IMG/VR virus record: IMGVR_UViG_3300012354_000015
Location: 1 to 23,381 of that record
Length of the DNA stretch: 23,381 bases
Source of the DNA: a virus
Reading direction: 5' to 3' (one strand)
The notes under the pieces are model-generated. The model saw only the letters and a program-made list of their open reading frames with translations. It did not search any database and was not told the origin of the DNA. Made by a program: the position numbers and the translations under genes. Positions 10,265-18,923 of this stretch are shown one piece after another (within the stretch, counting starts at the first letter, position 1; every line of letters starts with the position of its first letter).

Positions 10265-10723
10265 TTATTTAACTTCAACTACCTTAGTTTGTTCTAGATA
10301 GCTGATAGCCTTCAACAGCGTCTCTTTCGTTCCATGCTCGGTAACGATACCGTTACAATGAGTGCAGAGAACTCCACGAAACTGGCCTGTTGCGTGATCG
10401 TGATCTACGTGCCAATGATTCTTTCCCGAATCACGAGTGCCACATATACCGCATTTTTGACCTTGTGCATTAAACACAAAATCAAACAATTCTTTAGAAA
10501 CACCATATCTACGTTCTCTATCGGTCTCCCTACGATGTTCTTTATTTTTTAGATAATACTTTTTGAAATACGCGGTATTTTGAGGGCGAAGGCGTTTACA
10601 GCAGGCCTTACACCAACTCATAAATAGCCCATTTCCACAACGATAATACCCCGATTCATCTTTTTCTTCACTACACCGGGGACAAATCTTACGCCCATTA
10701 ATCCACTGGTTGCCCCTACTCAT
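10265..10723 (-). CDS. Recombination endonuclease VII-type HNH nuclease
   Basis: A 152-residue protein. The start at 10723 is chosen because its ATG overlaps the stop of the upstream gene (ATGAGTAG), which suggests translational coupling; a longer frame up to 10813 lacks this. N-terminal CPRCSEEKDESGYYRC and WCKACCKR form a zinc-binding region, a basic linker follows (YLKNKEHRRETDRERRYGVS), then CGICGTRDSGKNHWHVDHDH and the closing LCTHCNG. The CxxC pair around the HVDHDH core is the endonuclease VII (T4 gp49-like) fold, which phages use both for junction resolution and as free-standing homing nucleases. The second copy at 7993 shares the core. Mobile homing activity is more likely than a resolvase role given the context. 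Confidence 0.88.
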   Translation of the reverse strand: MSRGNQWINGRKICPRCSEEKDESGYYRCGNGLFMSWCKACCKRLRPQNTAYFKKYYLKNKEHRRETDRERRYGVSKELFDFVFNAQGQKCGICGTRDSGKNHWHVDHDHATGQFRGVLCTHCNGIVTEHGTKETLLKAISYLEQTKVVEVK

Positions 10724-11426
10724 CGAGCCGATTCCCGTTATTTCGAAATTGTCGAAGAGTTTGGTTGTATCGGTGAAATGCCGGAGTAGTGGCCGGAACG
10801 CCAAAAACCTCATTTGCCTTTTTCTCGGACAATATACCCTTTAATATTAACTGAAGGGTGCAAGTCCTCCACCCGCGATACTTCTCCGCGAGGGGGATAC
10901 CATGGTCATCGAATCGCATAACTGAAAGTTCAGGTGCAAACCCACTTTGACACCAACAACCGACTTCGGGTTCAAGAGCTAATCGCTGTACTATCAACGT
11001 TATCTTTCCCGCTTGGGGGTGAGATCGATACCAACACTTAATCCCAGCCTTTTGAAGTTTACCTATAAATACGCAAGAATGCATAATACGACCAATTCTG
11101 GCCCCTGCATCTTGGTATTCCTCCGGACTCAACCACTGATATTCTTTTACCGCCTCAGCACTCAATTCTTTCTGTCTAGCAAGCTGCTCTTTTGTTTCAG
11201 AAGACGCTTCAGCATCACTTACGCGAGACGCATACTCAGCCATCGCTTCAAGCAACGCGGGATCATCCCCGCCAAATTCTTGATCGTAAGTTTCCCATGG
11301 GGCTTTCTCGGAAGCCCGTGTCCCTTGTAACTTTTTAATTTCTTCCGGGGATAATCCAGAATCGACCGCTAACGGAGCCGCTTCTTCCCATCGCTGCATA
11401 TAATCGTCATTGGATACAAAACTCAA
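10716..11426 (-). CDS. Conserved phage-type protein of unknown function
   Basis: A 236-residue protein starting at a TTG (11426) with GGAGGAGCC directly upstream; no better start exists nearby. The first 115 residues are acidic and helical (MQRWEEAAPLAVDSGLSPEE ... LARQKELSAEAVKEY). The second half is more basic and mixed, with GARIGRIMHSCVFIGKLQKA, WCQSGFAPELSVMRFDDHG and YRGWRTCTLQLILKG, the last reminiscent of small DNA- or capsid-associated phage proteins. Its 3' end overlaps the HNH gene by eight bases. Nothing visible indicates catalysis. Function unknown. Confidence 0.7.
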   Translation of the reverse strand: MSFVSNDDYMQRWEEAAPLAVDSGLSPEEIKKLQGTRASEKAPWETYDQEFGGDDPALLEAMAEYASRVSDAEASSETKEQLARQKELSAEAVKEYQWLSPEEYQDAGARIGRIMHSCVFIGKLQKAGIKCWYRSHPQAGKITLIVQRLALEPEVGCWCQSGFAPELSVMRFDDHGIPLAEKYRGWRTCTLQLILKGILSEKKANEVFGVPATTPAFHRYNQTLRQFRNNGNRLDE

Positions 11427-12539: not shown

Positions 12540-13091
12540 ATGAAAAAACTCAATCTAGCGGGTCAAACTCTATCCTCTGGTGTTATTGTCACAACATCAG
12601 CGGGCGTTTCCATTCATGGTAAAACTCAATGGAACTGCGTGTGCCCGTGCGGGAAAGGCTTTATCGCCCTCGGAAGTGAACTCCGCAACAACCACACACG
12701 AAGCTGTGGTTGTTATTCTCGCAGTGGAACCTTCGTCACGAAACATGGTCATCGCAGCGTCACAAAAGGAAGCAATAAGCAATCCCCGATATACACGCTT
12801 TGGATAAACATCATAGCTCGATGCAGCAATCCGTTATACCCGCACTGGGCGGATTACGGTGGTCGCGGCATTACGTTCAATTCCGAATGGAACAATTTCA
12901 AAAAATTCTTAAACGATATCGAGAATTCTATCGGGCCAAAACCGCCCCTAGTTAAAGGCTATGAGCGGTATTGGTCGATAGATAGAATCAACAACGACGG
13001 TAATTACGAATTAGGAAATGTTCGTTGGGCTAATCCAATCGAACAAGCTAACAATCGTCGTCACAGACGTTGGCACAAGCGTCCTTCCTAA
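12540..13091 (+). CDS. HNH homing endonuclease, encoded on the opposite strand
   Basis: A 183-residue protein on the plus strand, the only convincing gene there. The N-terminal region has WNCVCPCGKGFIALGSEL and RSCGC, a zinc-binding module. The middle has PIYTLWINIIARCSNP and DYGGRGITFNSEWNNFKKF, and the C-terminal region has SIDRINNDGNYELGNVRWA, the hallmark of a phage HNH family (DRI.NDGNY..GN.RWA) often linked to AP2 DNA-binding domains. It is wedged between the major capsid gene, towards which it converges (15 bases apart), and the decoration gene, from which it diverges. It has its own strong promoter and no visible terminator. Free-standing homing is the most likely role. Confidence 0.9.
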   Translation: MKKLNLAGQTLSSGVIVTTSAGVSIHGKTQWNCVCPCGKGFIALGSELRNNHTRSCGCYSRSGTFVTKHGHRSVTKGSNKQSPIYTLWINIIARCSNPLYPHWADYGGRGITFNSEWNNFKKFLNDIENSIGPKPPLVKGYERYWSIDRINNDGNYELGNVRWANPIEQANNRRHRRWHKRPS

Positions 13092-13106: not shown

Positions 13107-13874
13107 TCAGGAAATCGCGCTAGCCGCGTCGATTTGACGCATACGAATTGTGGTATCCGGGCCGAGGCTGGTCGTGAAATGAACTCTGTAAGAAGTCCAT
13201 CCAGGGATCAGACCTTCGGGGTCAGCAACAGTCGGTTCAGCATTCTGAACGATGTTGCACTTAATGTTGCGCCAATCTCCATCACCGAACGACGTATCGT
13301 TCTGTGCGCCAAGATTGATAGCGAACACACCGTCACGCCCGAAGATGTAAGTCCGGAGTGCGGTCAACCCGGTCACACCCTTATAGTTCGAGGTGCGAGT
13401 AACCAGATTGGTCTGGAAGAAGTGAACGCCAGACGACGGCAATTCGATTACTTCCTCAAGATCAACACTAACCAATTCGTCCATCTTCGCCTGGCCCACA
13501 GGGGTGTGCTTCAGGATATCGATGGGAGAATCGTTGCTGTTGTCGGCAAGAACATCGCCAAGAGCGAACGGGTGGATCACACCAACGAACGACTTGGTAG
13601 CTTCGTCAAAAGGACGAACACTACGACCCGCCAGCGACTGAACGCTGTTACGAATCTGGGACAAGCTCAGAGCCGTAAAAGCCGAAGTGCTGGTGGCCGC
13701 CAATTGAACCAGCACGCTGGAATCAATACTGGAAGCTCCATCAGCCGTTGCACGCACAAGTGCGCTCAACGATTCGCCAAGACGATACGACATTTCTTTC
13801 GCCACATTCTCGACGGTGTTGTCGATGGCGGTTGCCAGAGACAGGGACGAGAAGTTTGCGTAATCGGCATATTC
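13107..13874 (-). CDS. Major capsid protein, exon 3 (residues 89-343)
   Basis: This is the main part of the shell protein. It reads EYADYANFSSLSLATAIDNT, then VAKEMSYRLGESLSALVRAT, RSVRPFDEATKSFVGVIHPF, FGRDGVFAINLG and GDGDWRNIK, ending TTIRMRQIDAASAIS and TGA. The GxYADYxNxS and GVIHPF/DxxxDxxN patterns fit HK97-fold capsid proteins of environmental phages. A TTG at 13877 can mimic a start, but there is no ribosome site and the first codons belong to the intron end. Joining to exon 2 after GGT and starting at GAA (13874) gives ATIG-EYADY in frame. With exons 1 and 2 the protein is 343 residues, normal for the family. Position after portal and scaffold supports the call. Confidence 0.9.
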   Translation of the reverse strand, partial: EYADYANFSSLSLATAIDNTVENVAKEMSYRLGESLSALVRATADGASSIDSSVLVQLAATSTSAFTALSLSQIRNSVQSLAGRSVRPFDEATKSFVGVIHPFALGDVLADNSNDSPIDILKHTPVGQAKMDELVSVDLEEVIELPSSGVHFFQTNLVTRTSNYKGVTGLTALRTYIFGRDGVFAINLGAQNDTSFGDGDWRNIKCNIVQNAEPTVADPEGLIPGWTSYRVHFTTSLGPDTTIRMRQIDAASAIS

Positions 13875-14494
13875 CAAATGTGTTTAGGGCTGCAACGTTC
13901 CCGTTGCACCACTCTCACGGTCGCCCGTGAGTTCGGGCTGTATCTTTACGGAATCTTGTTCCGCAATCTGCATATCAGTCTCTACGGTTGGCCCACGTTT
14001 ATTAAGGGTGTGCATTTTTTGATAAAGAGTCTCTCTGAGTTCCGGACATCTCTGTTCGCTCAGACGAAAAAACTCTACCAGCACTTTTGCCTGTTCTCGT
14101 TTAATAATCAGATATGGCATAAGTCCGAGGAGAAATATCTCCTTTGACTTCGCATTACCCGAAAAATACCAAGAATACGCAACGGAATGCTTTTCAGACT
14201 TCGGCTTGTGAACGTGTATGTTCCCGCCGAAATGCTCGACTAACCATTTCATCAGACGCTTGTCCGTGTTCTTAACATGGATGCGACCATAATAGTTATC
14301 GTACGACCCTCTATCTGACCGAGAGATAATCAAACAGCCTTCGCCGTCGATAATCCCCGCAAGATAGATAACGTGATTTTTCTTCATTTGACCCATCCTT
14401 CCGGATTATTAAGCAGGGTTTAGCCTTACCACGGTATTGTCTCATTTCTGAGAGTTTCACCGTTATAGCAGATTTTGCATCGGCAAATATGTTT
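13875..14494 (-). other. Group I intron (620 nt) within the major capsid gene
   Basis: Splice sites are set by pairing. Exon AUCGGU (14500-14495) pairs with GCCGAU (14484-14479) as P1 with U-G at the 5' site; exon 3 GAAUAU pairs with AUAUUU (14490-14485) as P10; the intron ends in G (13875). The core is visible: P3 AAUCUGC (14474-14468) with GCAGAUU (13971-13965); P4 ACGGU (14463-14459) with ACCGU (14435-14431); P5 UCUC/GAGA; P8 GCGGAA/UUCCGU (13964-13948); probable P7 GACUG (13980-13976) with CAGCC (13940-13936), which contains one A-C mismatch. Two 3' hairpins of 7 bp have GNRA loops (13931-13914, GCGA; 13908-13891, GGAA). The segment ACGGUGAAACUCUC...GACAAUACCGUG matches the usual group I P4-P5 pattern. 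Splicing restores the capsid frame. Confidence 0.9.
13884..14387 (-). CDS. Intron-encoded LAGLIDADG homing endonuclease
   Basis: About 167 residues from the ATG at 14387, which has GGAAGG nine bases upstream; an ATG at 14396 directly abuts that site and is less likely. The motif LAGIIDGEG at residues 9-17 is the catalytic and dimer helix of the family. RIHVKNTDKRLMKWLVEHFGG, then AYSWYFSGNAKSKEIFLL and LMPYLIIKREQAKVLVEF follow the usual order. Only one motif is present, so it should act as a homodimer. It would cut intronless capsid alleles near the exon 2-exon 3 junction. The last 30 or so codons coincide with P7, P3, P8 and P9 of the ribozyme, so the C-terminal residues (ELTGDRESGATGTLQP) are probably dictated by RNA folding. 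Confidence 0.9.
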   Translation of the reverse strand: MKKNHVIYLAGIIDGEGCLIISRSDRGSYDNYYGRIHVKNTDKRLMKWLVEHFGGNIHVHKPKSEKHSVAYSWYFSGNAKSKEIFLLGLMPYLIIKREQAKVLVEFFRLSEQRCPELRETLYQKMHTLNKRGPTVETDMQIAEQDSVKIQPELTGDRESGATGTLQP

Positions 14495-14597
14495 ACCGAT
14501 GGTCGCAGTCGTGGTCAGCACGGACACCGACAAAGAGGAACCAACAGTTCCTTCAGTAGTCTGGTTAGTGTTCGCAGCCAACGGAACGTACATGAAC
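14495..14597 (-). CDS. Major capsid protein, exon 2 (residues 54-88)
   Basis: These 103 bases encode FMYVPLAANTNQTTEGTVGS and on to VLTTTATIG, the strongly conserved N-arm and E-loop-like region of this capsid family (..PLAANT...TEGTVGSSL...). The reading frame has no start of its own and closes at TGG TAA at 14430-14428 inside the intron. Its first base (G, 14597) completes a split codon AT|G with exon 1, and its last codon is GGT before the group I 5' splice site. Its opening bases pair with the 45-nt element (P10), and its closing bases pair with the 620-nt intron (P1), so this short exon serves both interruptions. Confidence 0.85.
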
Positions 14598-14642
14598 CAA
14601 TAACGTTCTCGACTTTGACTTACGAGACATTCATGTTATAGA
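14598..14642 (-). other. 45-nt interruption with group I splice-site anatomy but no core
   Basis: These bases separate two conserved parts of the capsid gene and contain an in-frame TAA (14638-14636). Upstream exon UACGAGAU (14650-14643) pairs with GUCUCGUA (14628-14621) as an 8-bp P1 whose last pair is U-G at the 5' boundary. Immediately 5' of that strand, CAUGAAU (14635-14629) pairs with the first seven bases of exon 2, GUUCAUG, as a P10. The element ends in G (14598). This is the same geometry as the neighbouring intron, and removal gives in-frame SGNQYE-M-FMYVPL. Only 23 bases lie between P1 and the 3' end, far too few for P3-P8. A competing hairpin TCTCG/CGAGA (14627-14607) is also possible. 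Excision is inferred, not shown. Confidence 0.6.
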
Positions 14643-14803
14643 ATCTCGTATTGATTACCGCTCTTCATGGGCAGATCAAGACGCTCTGCGCAACGCACGA
14701 AGGGGGTGTTAGCTTTCAGGTTTTCACGAAACCGTTTGTCGTAGTACTTTACAGTAGACTGCGGCAGGTTTGAAAGCTGGTTACCGCTAGGAGAAAAACT
14801 CAT
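14643..14803 (-). CDS. Major capsid protein, exon 1 (residues 1-53)
   Basis: The ATG at 14803 has TAAGG nine bases upstream. It encodes MSFSPSGNQLSNLPQSTVKY, then YDKRFRENLKANTPFVRCAE and RLDLPMKSGNQYE. The STVKYYDKRFxENLKxNTPF and LPMxSGNQ patterns are the usual N-terminus of this capsid family. Without removal of the 45-nt element the ribosome would stop after 55 codons at TAA 14638. The exon is taken to end at T14643, within codon 54, on the basis of the P1 pairing described for that element. The gene follows the scaffold-like gene after 17 bases, as expected for head operons. Confidence 0.85.
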
Positions 14804-16308: not shown

Positions 16309-18441
16309 TTAAGCAACAGTCGGCAGTGTCCCTTGCAATCCTTGTGGACTAGGAACTCCCTCGACCGCTTGGCTCATACCGCTAGCCCTAGCGGCTTCGC
16401 GAGTAATATCTCGCTTAATACGATTATCAGATGCTTGATCTTCCAGAGCCTGTTTCTGGTTGAACTTTTGCTGTTCTCCCTGGTTTTTTGCCGCGATCTG
16501 TTGTTGCACCAAGGCTGCTTTGGAATTTGCATCTCGCCGAGCTTTCATTTCTGGCGTCATCTTCCTGATGATATCGTTCTTATTCTTCCATTCCGAAGCT
16601 TCGAGCCACATACTAACAATCGGCTTAAAGTCAATATATTCTTCGTTGATCTCCGCCAGACTCTGCTGAATCTGTGGATTGTCGAGAATCTGCGTAAGCA
16701 TAACCATCGACTGGGCCATCGTACGTTTCGCTGCGAGACTCGCGCCTGCAAGAACTTCGTACTCGATTTGGGAATCATGAAATTCCTGAAGATTAAATTT
16801 CTTCAAGAAGTCTTGTCCCTCTTCTTTGCCGAGAATGTGGAGGATCGAGGCATCCGACATAACGTTAAAAATCAACATGTCGATGATGCTCAAGAATGGT
16901 TTAAATACTTGTTCGATAAAATTATCTAACGGGCCATCCAGCCGAGTCGCACTTGCACCCGCGAGAATATTAGCCCCACCCGCCGTACGACCCATAGAGG
17001 ATCGAGGGCCAGCGGAACTGCCCTGTACCAGCATCTGGTCTGCGCCGGACGAGGACTCAGTCGCCTGTTCACTCTCTTTTAAAGCATTCCAGATATCCGG
17101 AGGAACCTTAGGAGTATCCATCAACCTATAGGATTTCTCGGTATCTGTCACGGCCAGAATTTTACCCAACCCGGTACGTATAACCTGGGTGGGGGCGTTA
17201 TCATCACGATTTCGAAGATAGATCGGATTAACGCCAAATGACAAAATCTTTAGAATAGCATTGATCGTACCTTGATCTACTCTTTGATTTTGTCCAACAA
17301 TAAGTCCGAGGCCCATACCGTAGAATGCCCGAGGGCGATTCCACCAATTTGCTGATAAAAAAGGAATCTGTTTAAATTCGTTCTTCGTCGTACAGATAAC
17401 TTTACGTCGGTTAAGAACTATAATTTTCCGTTCTTTATCCCAATATTCTAAAATCTCCAGTTTCTTCCTAAAAGGATCGGGACTTGTGGCGATGTTATTC
17501 TTCTCTGCATGGTGAACAACACCCTCTATAAAGGATGCTTGTTCCGTCGCTGGGGTCTCTGAAGTAACGGGCGAAGCCCAATATGCTTTAAGATCAGCTT
17601 CTGACGGAAATGTCCAACCTTGGATTGCTTCTCCTTTTTCCCCATCCGCGATAGCGCCAGCAATTGCTTTACGCAAATCATCGAGTTGATACCAGTCCAT
17701 ATACTGTATGTCGACAACCCATGCAGCCTTGCGGATATCACTAACCGATAATTGCGGATCAATCAACACTTTATCCAACGGACGCCACTGAAAAAATGGC
17801 AGAGGAATCGTATGAGTGACCCGGTCAATAGACGGCGGTTCATCCGTCGGAATAGATATTGTTTCAGGGGCAGACCCTTCCGTTGCGGGAACCTCTATCT
17901 TTTTTTCAGAAACCTTACGCTTAAAAGTGACGACATCTTTCCAATCGTATCCCCACTTAAATATTGCCGTGCCAAGATGGGCCATCTGTTCTAGTCCCCA
18001 CTTCGTCTGGGTTTTAAATCCACACTCGTCAAGGACGTAGGAGAACAAAGATGTTTTGGCATCAACAACTTCTTGTGAAGTACCCGGACGGGGCCGGAGT
18101 AACATCGGAGGATCGTCGTAAAATAAACCCTTATACAACTGTGGAACAACAGCATTACAAACTTTTGCAACAGTAAATCGTTGAACGTTCGGTTCGAGAA
18201 CATAAGTGTTCTCATAAACCGTCATCGGGCGTGGAGATTGATACAATAAGTCTGCATCTCTCCATAACAATGTCCACTGGCGATTAGCGATAAACTCAGA
18301 GGCTTCGCGGGCCGATCCGACAACTAACGCAAGATCAACATCCACGGACTTAGTCTCCCCTTGCGGGGTAAAGTCCTGGGCAGTCAGAGTCGCATTAGGA
18401 TTTCCGTCTTTTTCAAGCGATGCTACGAGGGGTTCTGACAT
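16309..18441 (-). CDS. Portal protein
   Basis: A 710-residue protein, the dodecameric channel at one head vertex through which the terminase packages DNA. Its position directly after terminase and before scaffold and capsid, and its size, are typical of large podovirus-type portals. Features include NTYVLEPNVQRFTVAKVCNA (clip or wing entry), KWGLEQMAHLGTAIFKWGYD, and RAFYGMGLGLIVGQNQRVDQ followed by INAILKIL, the usual portal helix region (G.G......Q......N....L). The C-terminus is Gln/Ala-rich and coiled (ALVQQQIAAKNQGEQQKFNQ). The ATG at 18441 lies within the end of the GIY-YIG gene (19-base overlap), and its AGAAGG site is inside that gene. Confidence 0.88.
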   Translation of the reverse strand: MSEPLVASLEKDGNPNATLTAQDFTPQGETKSVDVDLALVVGSAREASEFIANRQWTLLWRDADLLYQSPRPMTVYENTYVLEPNVQRFTVAKVCNAVVPQLYKGLFYDDPPMLLRPRPGTSQEVVDAKTSLFSYVLDECGFKTQTKWGLEQMAHLGTAIFKWGYDWKDVVTFKRKVSEKKIEVPATEGSAPETISIPTDEPPSIDRVTHTIPLPFFQWRPLDKVLIDPQLSVSDIRKAAWVVDIQYMDWYQLDDLRKAIAGAIADGEKGEAIQGWTFPSEADLKAYWASPVTSETPATEQASFIEGVVHHAEKNNIATSPDPFRKKLEILEYWDKERKIIVLNRRKVICTTKNEFKQIPFLSANWWNRPRAFYGMGLGLIVGQNQRVDQGTINAILKILSFGVNPIYLRNRDDNAPTQVIRTGLGKILAVTDTEKSYRLMDTPKVPPDIWNALKESEQATESSSGADQMLVQGSSAGPRSSMGRTAGGANILAGASATRLDGPLDNFIEQVFKPFLSIIDMLIFNVMSDASILHILGKEEGQDFLKKFNLQEFHDSQIEYEVLAGASLAAKRTMAQSMVMLTQILDNPQIQQSLAEINEEYIDFKPIVSMWLEASEWKNKNDIIRKMTPEMKARRDANSKAALVQQQIAAKNQGEQQKFNQKQALEDQASDNRIKRDITREAARASGMSQAVEGVPSPQGLQGTLPTVA

Positions 18442-18923
18442 TTGGCTTTCCTTCTAGCGTGTGCCGCCTTCGCCGCTTCGCTGATTCGTATTCGGGATTC
18501 AATTGAGCGATGCTTGCCTCTATTAGAATCTCCTATTCGAAGTCTATGAATTACCGAATGGGGGCCAAGTTTAACCCCCATATGACTTTTACTAAGTTTT
18601 TCGCAATGCTTAACCGATTTTGGTCTATCTCGCAAAGCTTCGCCAATTTTCTGGCCATGCTGCTTAGTACGAATCAAGCCTTGTAGACCCTCGCCACCAT
18701 CTGTTCGGTTCCGCAAACATCCGGTTGCCAGATCAAGACGACCATAATACGCAATCATAAAAATCTCAGAAACAATAGCGTCTTGCTCCGAAGGATGCTC
18801 TTGAATTAGTATTCGATCACGCAAGGGACAGCCCTTACGATAGGCACGGCGTCCAATACCTTTTCCCACATAATATGGCGTACCATTTTCACGAAGCCAT
18901 AAATAAGTGTAAAAAACTTTCAA
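18423..18923 (-). CDS. GIY-YIG homing endonuclease with NUMOD3-like repeats
   Basis: A 166-residue protein starting at a TTG (18923) with AAGGGAG seven bases upstream. FYTYLW (residues 4-9) and PYYVGKG (16-22) are the GIY and YIG strands; Arg25-Arg29 follow, Glu53 in SEIFMIAYYG is the likely metal ligand, and NRTDGGEG is the family's closing loop. The C-terminal half has NUMOD3-like DNA-binding pieces (HGQKIGEALRDRP, EKLSKSHMG, RIRISEAAKAAHARRKAK). It is wedged between terminase and portal genes and is a free-standing mobile endonuclease. Its final codons overlap the portal start, so it now carries the portal's ribosome site. Confidence 0.9.
   Translation of the reverse strand: MKVFYTYLWLRENGTPYYVGKGIGRRAYRKGCPLRDRILIQEHPSEQDAIVSEIFMIAYYGRLDLATGCLRNRTDGGEGLQGLIRTKQHGQKIGEALRDRPKSVKHCEKLSKSHMGVKLGPHSVIHRLRIGDSNRGKHRSIESRIRISEAAKAAHARRKAKCQNPS

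Follow-up and report, generated by a model that had tools for sequence, protein, structure and literature searches.

Self-splicing introns are thought to have yielded the spliceosome through the loss of their own catalytic parts and a growing reliance on shared ones, and for group II introns the outcomes are known, namely reduced plastid introns and spliceosomal introns. The group III introns of euglenid plastids are reduced group II introns and are the nearest idea to the element considered here, a 45-nucleotide (nt) insert in the major capsid gene of a virus. The insert lies in IMG/VR virus record IMGVR_UViG_3300012354_000015, of which positions 1 to 23,381, a metagenomic fragment of some 23 kb referred to below as the window, were analysed; from its sequence it is probably a group I intron that retains its splice-site guide and has lost its catalytic core. 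This insert and similar ones of 32-98 nt in the capsid genes of related soil phages are termed minis. Group III introns are likewise reduced, with catalytic domains lost and a presumed reliance on the parts of others, but they differ from minis in their group II chemistry, in having no known adjacent one-to-one partner, and in residing in the plastid genomes of eukaryotes.

Closer in chemistry are the group I introns of phages (T4 td type, Twort, Bastillevirinae), with which the minis have in common a P1 helix with a U.G pair, a P10 helix, a terminal G, an early in-frame stop and a location in phage structural genes; indeed, minis occupy sites that also hold full group I introns. They differ in the lack of a P3-P9 core, in lying directly upstream of a complete intron and in having a tail that pairs with an exon end. 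An engineered group I spliceozyme provides a core that removes a short coreless intron (64 or 100 nt) supplied separately (PMC4094466); this system acts in trans with the guide on the ribozyme, whereas here the guide is on the mini and the core lies in cis downstream. In phage Twort, group I introns have been reported to cause exon skipping (Landthaler and Shub 1999, as cited in PMC3073962), and there too, within a single phage gene, splice sites interact between adjacent group I introns; in the account cited there, all the introns concerned are complete and the outcome is exon skipping, whereas minis are coreless and would be removed. Finally, the T4 gene 60 bypass element and the mitochondrial byps are also short untranslated gaps with an early stop inside a gene, but minis have guide and clamp pairings in place of matching take-off and landing codons. 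A search of the literature, in its open-licence full texts, gave no description of group I introns that are coreless or non-autonomous; to the original prediction, made on this DNA from its letters alone, no described satellite of this kind was known either.

Two inserts in the capsid gene of the window

The capsid gene lies on the minus strand, and its alignment to intronless relatives places two inserts in it, one of 45 nt (14642-14598) and one of 620 nt (14494-13875). The features are as follows; the clamp is the helix formed between the tail of the mini and the end of the middle exon.

14643-14803, minus strand: exon 1 of the major capsid gene, with its ATG at 14803, from spliced alignment to intronless relatives
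14643-14650, minus strand: P1 exon strand of the mini, UACGAGAU, whose last base is the U of the U.G at the 5' splice site; formed in the unconstrained fold too
14598-14642, minus strand: putative coreless mini-intron, 45 nt, with in-frame TAA and terminal G
14629-14636, minus strand: P10 strand of the mini, ACAUGAAU, whose partner is the first 8 nt of exon 2
14621-14628, minus strand: P1 guide strand of the mini, GUCUCGUA; also in the unconstrained fold
14598-14620, minus strand: tail of the mini, with clamp strand GUCAAAGUCG at 14619-14610
14590-14597, minus strand: P10 partner GUUCAUGU, the first bases of exon 2
14495-14597, minus strand: capsid exon 2 (exon B), 103 nt, from spliced alignment to intronless relatives
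14502-14511, minus strand: clamp partner CGACUGCGAC, in the last part of exon 2 and immediately preceding the P1 of the full intron
13875-14494, minus strand: full group I intron, 620 nt, with P10 strand at 14491-14485, P1 guide strand at 14484-14478 and core profile matches
13884-14396, minus strand: LAGLIDADG homing endonuclease open reading frame, inside the full intron and overlapping its 3' core
13107-13874, minus strand: capsid exon 3, from spliced alignment to intronless relatives

The mini thus consists of a guide followed by a tail. Its P1 has 8 base pairs (bp), UACGAGAU with GUCUCGUA, and a U.G pair at the 5' boundary, and its P10 also has 8 bp, GUUCAUGU with ACAUGAAU, and a G.U pair at the first base of exon 2. 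In other words, ACAUGAAU-GUCUCGUA is one contiguous guide whose pairing runs unbroken over the 8 nt of exon sequence on each side of the insert. Removal of the mini would give the exon 1-exon 2 junction ...TACGAGAT followed directly by GTTCATGT..., and hence the protein junction QYE-M-FMYVPL, which is that of the intronless relatives. The anatomy given in the original prediction is therefore borne out in the frame broken by 45 bases with an in-frame TAA, for which exact limits can now be stated, in the 8-bp P1 with U-G at the boundary, in the terminal G and in the restored junction; its P10 does begin with the first base of the next exon and adjoin the P1 guide, and is one pair longer than the 7 bp first given.

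The complete intron proposed to lie 103 bases downstream with the same architecture is also present, with both the P1/P10 layout and the LAGLIDADG reading frame. Its layout runs from AUCGGU at the end of exon 2, through the contiguous CAUAUUU-GCCGAUG within the intron, to GAAUAUG at the start of exon 3, and a group I core is matched at 14476-14421 (E 9.5e-7) and 13989-13894 (E 2.2e-13) in nhmmer searches with the cores of relatives' introns at other sites.

Minis as a recurring class

About 430 loci were collected from viral contigs in seven scans that differed in their capsid query, and inserts were located in them by a spliced aligner against intronless capsid genes. By size the inserts form two classes, one of 32-98 nt and one of at least 180 nt. 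With near-duplicates removed, the smaller class comprises a first set of 28 minis and a held-out set of 12 that was analysed once the rules had been fixed, making 40 minis in 36 capsid genes. They occupy about 11 sites (47, 53, 60, 66, 156, 161, 894-900, 906, 911, 915-921 and 940 in capsid coordinates), at least six of which (53, 60, 66, 156, 161 and 900) hold full introns in other phages. A full-length intron at the site of the window's mini, a comparison that had been called for at the outset, is present at site 161 in locus L063, with the guide GCAUGAAUGUCUCGUA, which is that of the window's mini except for its first base. The coreless element is thus confirmed as a recurring class and no one-off. 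The class was met in the capsid gene alone: a six-frame split-alignment search of all loci gave no minis outside it, the portal gene having only full introns and weak small gaps on the other strand. A search of genome collections gave a single match, a metagenome bin carrying such a phage.

A guide with a U.G at the 5' boundary is present in each of the 40 minis; its P1 has 5-9 bp (counted to at most 9 bp), and its P10, 3-8 bp long, abuts the P1 guide strand. Because the sites differ, so do the guides, each fitting its own flanks. The summed length of P1 and P10 over the 28 minis of the first set is 382, against 112 +/- 11 in shuffled inserts (z=24.7); each of the 28 is seldom equalled by its own shuffles (p <= 0.009), and the held-out minis give z=14.2. 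All minis end in G, the insert boundary having been set with a preference for G wherever the alignment could slide. What they do not have is the P3-P8 core with its G-binding site in P7, since only 15-80 nt remain after the guide, which extends to the whole class the original remark that no core fits in 45 nt. Minis are therefore not classed as ordinary group I members, the splice-site features being present and the core absent. Group II and III introns are marked by domain V/VI, a branch-point A and a 5' end of GU(G)YG; the 5' ends of the minis are variable.

Several of the longer minis have additional internal hairpins (98 nt at site 940 in L247 and L249, 72 nt at site 66 in L021, 62 nt at site 940 in L254), and these are possibly intermediates of core loss.

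Minis are, moreover, closely tied to full introns. A full intron is found in 36 of 36 mini-bearing genes and in 32 of 96 other genes (Fisher p 9e-14), and in no gene is a mini the sole insert. Going downstream from any mini, the first insert met is a full intron, 20-215 nt away (in L187 this intron starts at the contig end, which cuts it off). Random assignment of inserts to the occupied positions within each gene would give the mini-then-full order with a probability of 3e-10 over 31 genes, and 18 distinct pairings of mini site and full-intron site all have this one order.

The capsid genes that carry these inserts appear to encode a protein that is needed. The frame is broken in all first-set minis, through a stop or a shift, and the ratio of nonsynonymous to synonymous substitution rates (dN/dS) among genes with a mini at site 161 is 0.045-0.11, with dS mostly near or above 1. 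To judge by this ratio, the capsid exons are under strong purifying selection and the protein is selected for while the insert is present; the insert must therefore be removed or skipped.

A helix between the tail of the mini and the following exon

The partner of the mini's tail (the stretch from the guide to the terminal G) is the last part of the middle exon, immediately in front of the full intron's 5' splice site. This clamp is exemplified by UAACUAGUC/GACUAGUUA in L188, GAGGUUGUG/CACAACCUC in L205, GAAGUUGU/ACAACUUC in L191, UAGUUGU/ACAACUA in L190, AGGACCAA/UUGGUCCU in L194, AGUAGAAGUCG/CGACUGCUACU in L017 and GUUGCAGUCG/CGACCGCAAC in L013. The letters of the tail follow those of the exon, which vary from phage to phage. 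An ungapped helix score was adopted because a duplex score that permits large loops gave weak single p-values; with it, the clamp exceeds shuffled tails at z=10.6 for the first 17 minis, z=12.3 for 28 and z=3.7 for the held-out set, and tails swapped between genes matched the observed score in 0 of 100,000 trials (first 17 minis). A positional scan of tail pairing has a sharp peak only before the downstream 5' splice site, while the equivalent control, the end of a full intron against the exon end before the next full intron, gives z=-0.5, and the tail shows no pairing signal with the first 40 nt of the downstream intron. Among other intron sites, the true downstream site ranks top for 18 of 28 minis, where 5.4 are expected. 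At site 940 the clamp partner lies before 981 or before 992, tracking the position of the full intron. The end of the clamp is within 1 nt of the start of the full-intron P1 in 19 of the 20 minis with a located clamp, minis with no clear clamp not being counted. When 14655-14470 of the window is folded without constraints, the minimum-energy structure includes the mini P1, the clamp and the full-intron P1 together (z=-4.2), and clamps homologous to that of the window, and stronger, are present in L013, L017 and L261.

Some minis near the 5' end of the gene have a different pairing, between the tail and the exon upstream of their own P1. It is seen in L030, L042, L246, L259 and L433 (site 60) and in L154 and L204 (site 66), for example as CGCAAUCG/CGAUUGCG and CCACGG/CCGUGG; support is modest at sites 47-66 (z=-3.1) and was not found at the other sites. 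This pairing is perhaps a second kind of clamp.

Proposed mechanism and its alternatives

Since the minis have guides without a core, lie upstream of a complete intron and base-pair with it, they probably depend on the ribozyme of their neighbour. The anatomy, recurrence, order, pairing statistics and exon selection are properties of the sequences themselves; the splicing of the RNA, the cis action of the downstream core and the order of the two reactions are what we infer. The 45-nt insert of the window is, in our judgement, probably a non-autonomous group I intron, coreless itself and excised in cis through the core of the intron downstream. The more general proposal, made with slightly less confidence though still thought likely, is of a natural class of coreless group I introns, which would have arisen by repeated core loss from complete introns, with cis splicing by the next downstream core via the clamp, and one core serving two introns in sequence.

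In natural group I introns the order of elements is P1 - J1/2 - P2 - P3. In the proposed mechanism, the mini would keep the splice-site module (P1 with U.G, contiguous P10 guide, terminal G), its P3-P9 having been lost, and the unit would read mini P1, 0-6 nt, clamp, full-intron P1, core. The clamp would loop out the middle exon and set the P1-P10 helix of the mini beside the downstream core in place of P2; in other words, it would be a P2-like helix whose loop contains the 3' splice site of the mini and the middle exon. The downstream core would then dock the mini P1, excise the mini and ligate exons 1 and 2. Removal of the mini would dissolve the clamp, after which the full intron could dock its own P1 and excise itself. 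In this unit, as in an ordinary intron, the guide would be attached on the 5' side of the core, which would explain why the mini is always upstream.

The original prediction left the choice between cis and trans splicing by the neighbouring ribozyme undecided. Dependence on that ribozyme gains from the 40 minis, each with a guide and each directly upstream of a full intron, and as to the choice itself the constant order, the spacing of 20-215 nt and the helix between tail and exon end favour cis. A group I core acting freely in trans, from any intron of the phage or of a co-infecting phage, would have a precedent in the spliceozymes that remove 64-100-nt introns (PMC4094466), and would suit both the genes with more than one full intron and the site-60 minis that have no strong downstream clamp; it predicts no order, yet a full intron follows directly upon every mini, and the partner of the tail is the end of the exon that precedes this very intron, such that trans action is unlikely. 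Much less probable still is that the mini serves as an alternative 5' splice site, with exon 1 joined to exon 3 and exon 2 skipped to give a shorter capsid variant. The skipping reported for neighbouring Twort introns, as cited in PMC3073962, speaks for it, but a P10 directed at exon 2 is part of the mini, whose terminal G falls precisely on the frame boundary, and exon 2 is conserved in the intronless relatives.

The remaining explanations, which had been offered as alternatives from the start, dispense with splicing. Bypassing of the insert by ribosomes in the manner of T4 gene 60 is favoured by the similar size of the gap (45 nt, and 50 nt in gene 60), by the early stop and by a stem close to the point of take-off; against this, matching take-off and landing codons are found in 0 of 28 minis, mini lengths fall in all three frames, and the P10, the U.G pair, the sites shared with full introns and the downstream clamp are all unpredicted, which makes bypassing highly improbable. 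An intron relic in a dead capsid gene, or an assembly error, might be suspected in a metagenomic fragment of this size, but near-identical minis recur in contigs of different samples (L017/L019, L042/L043, L188/L189), divergent minis at one site retain the pairing, the terminase and portal reading frames of the window are intact, and the low dN/dS among mini-bearing genes is not that of a dead gene; this is the least credible of the explanations. Purifying selection and the absence of codon matches are thus what render a dead gene, an assembly error and bypassing unlikely.

Several points weigh against splicing of the mini by the downstream core. An Rfam search of the window gave no group I match up to E=1, after which the core profiles of the relatives were used for it, and the RF00028 matches in the full introns of relatives (E 0.001-0.06) are under the gathering threshold. 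The clamp of the window, GUC-AA-AGUCG/CGACU-GC-GAC, is 8 bp with a 2x2 internal loop and is weak when taken alone (p 0.14), and the site-60 minis have no clear clamp downstream; their tails have the pairing with the upstream exon, which may replace the clamp there. Moreover, the genes are related, so that the p-values overstate independence, and homing of linked mini-full pairs could alone produce part of the co-occurrence; the figures for co-occurrence and order are therefore upper limits of surprise. To our knowledge, a single group I core that serves two introns is without natural precedent.

Implications

If the proposal is true, minis represent for group I introns the transition that group II introns made when self-splicing gave way to dependence on a shared machine; the searchable literature yielded no natural example of this among group I introns. 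Within one phage family, the same capsid positions have complete introns in some genes, coreless ones in others and none in still others, and the sequences give evidence that a coreless intron is physically linked to its provider; the evolution of intron dependence thereby becomes testable in bacteria with short RNAs. There is also a warning for annotation: the apparent frameshifts and stops that break the capsid genes of these phages probably mark introns of 32-98 nt, and such introns are invisible to covariance-model searches for group I introns.

Other observations

Very small group I introns (about 180-240 nt) with no endonuclease lie near the 3' end of the capsid gene in some relatives (L188:3726-3925, L261 site 956, L254 site 992, L247 site 981), and a mini is upstream of those at sites 956, 981 and 992 in nearly all cases. 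Small introns of 216-235 nt are also found in the portal gene of relatives (L093:95-614, L096:456-685, L103:612-829), where no minis were seen.

Elsewhere in the window, 10265-10813 is an endonuclease VII-type reading frame (Pfam PF02945), 18423-18923, between the portal and terminase genes, is GIY-YIG-like by eye with no Pfam match, and 12540-13091 is an unassigned reading frame on the opposite strand after the capsid gene. All three lie between structural genes and are probable free-standing endonuclease genes.

A capsid gene of this phage family is also carried by L152 (PSRA01000113.1), a contig binned as a Bacteroidetes genome. The isolate relative PP885686.1 has as its host the acidobacterium Tunturiibacter, and the bin is therefore probably contaminated by a phage contig.
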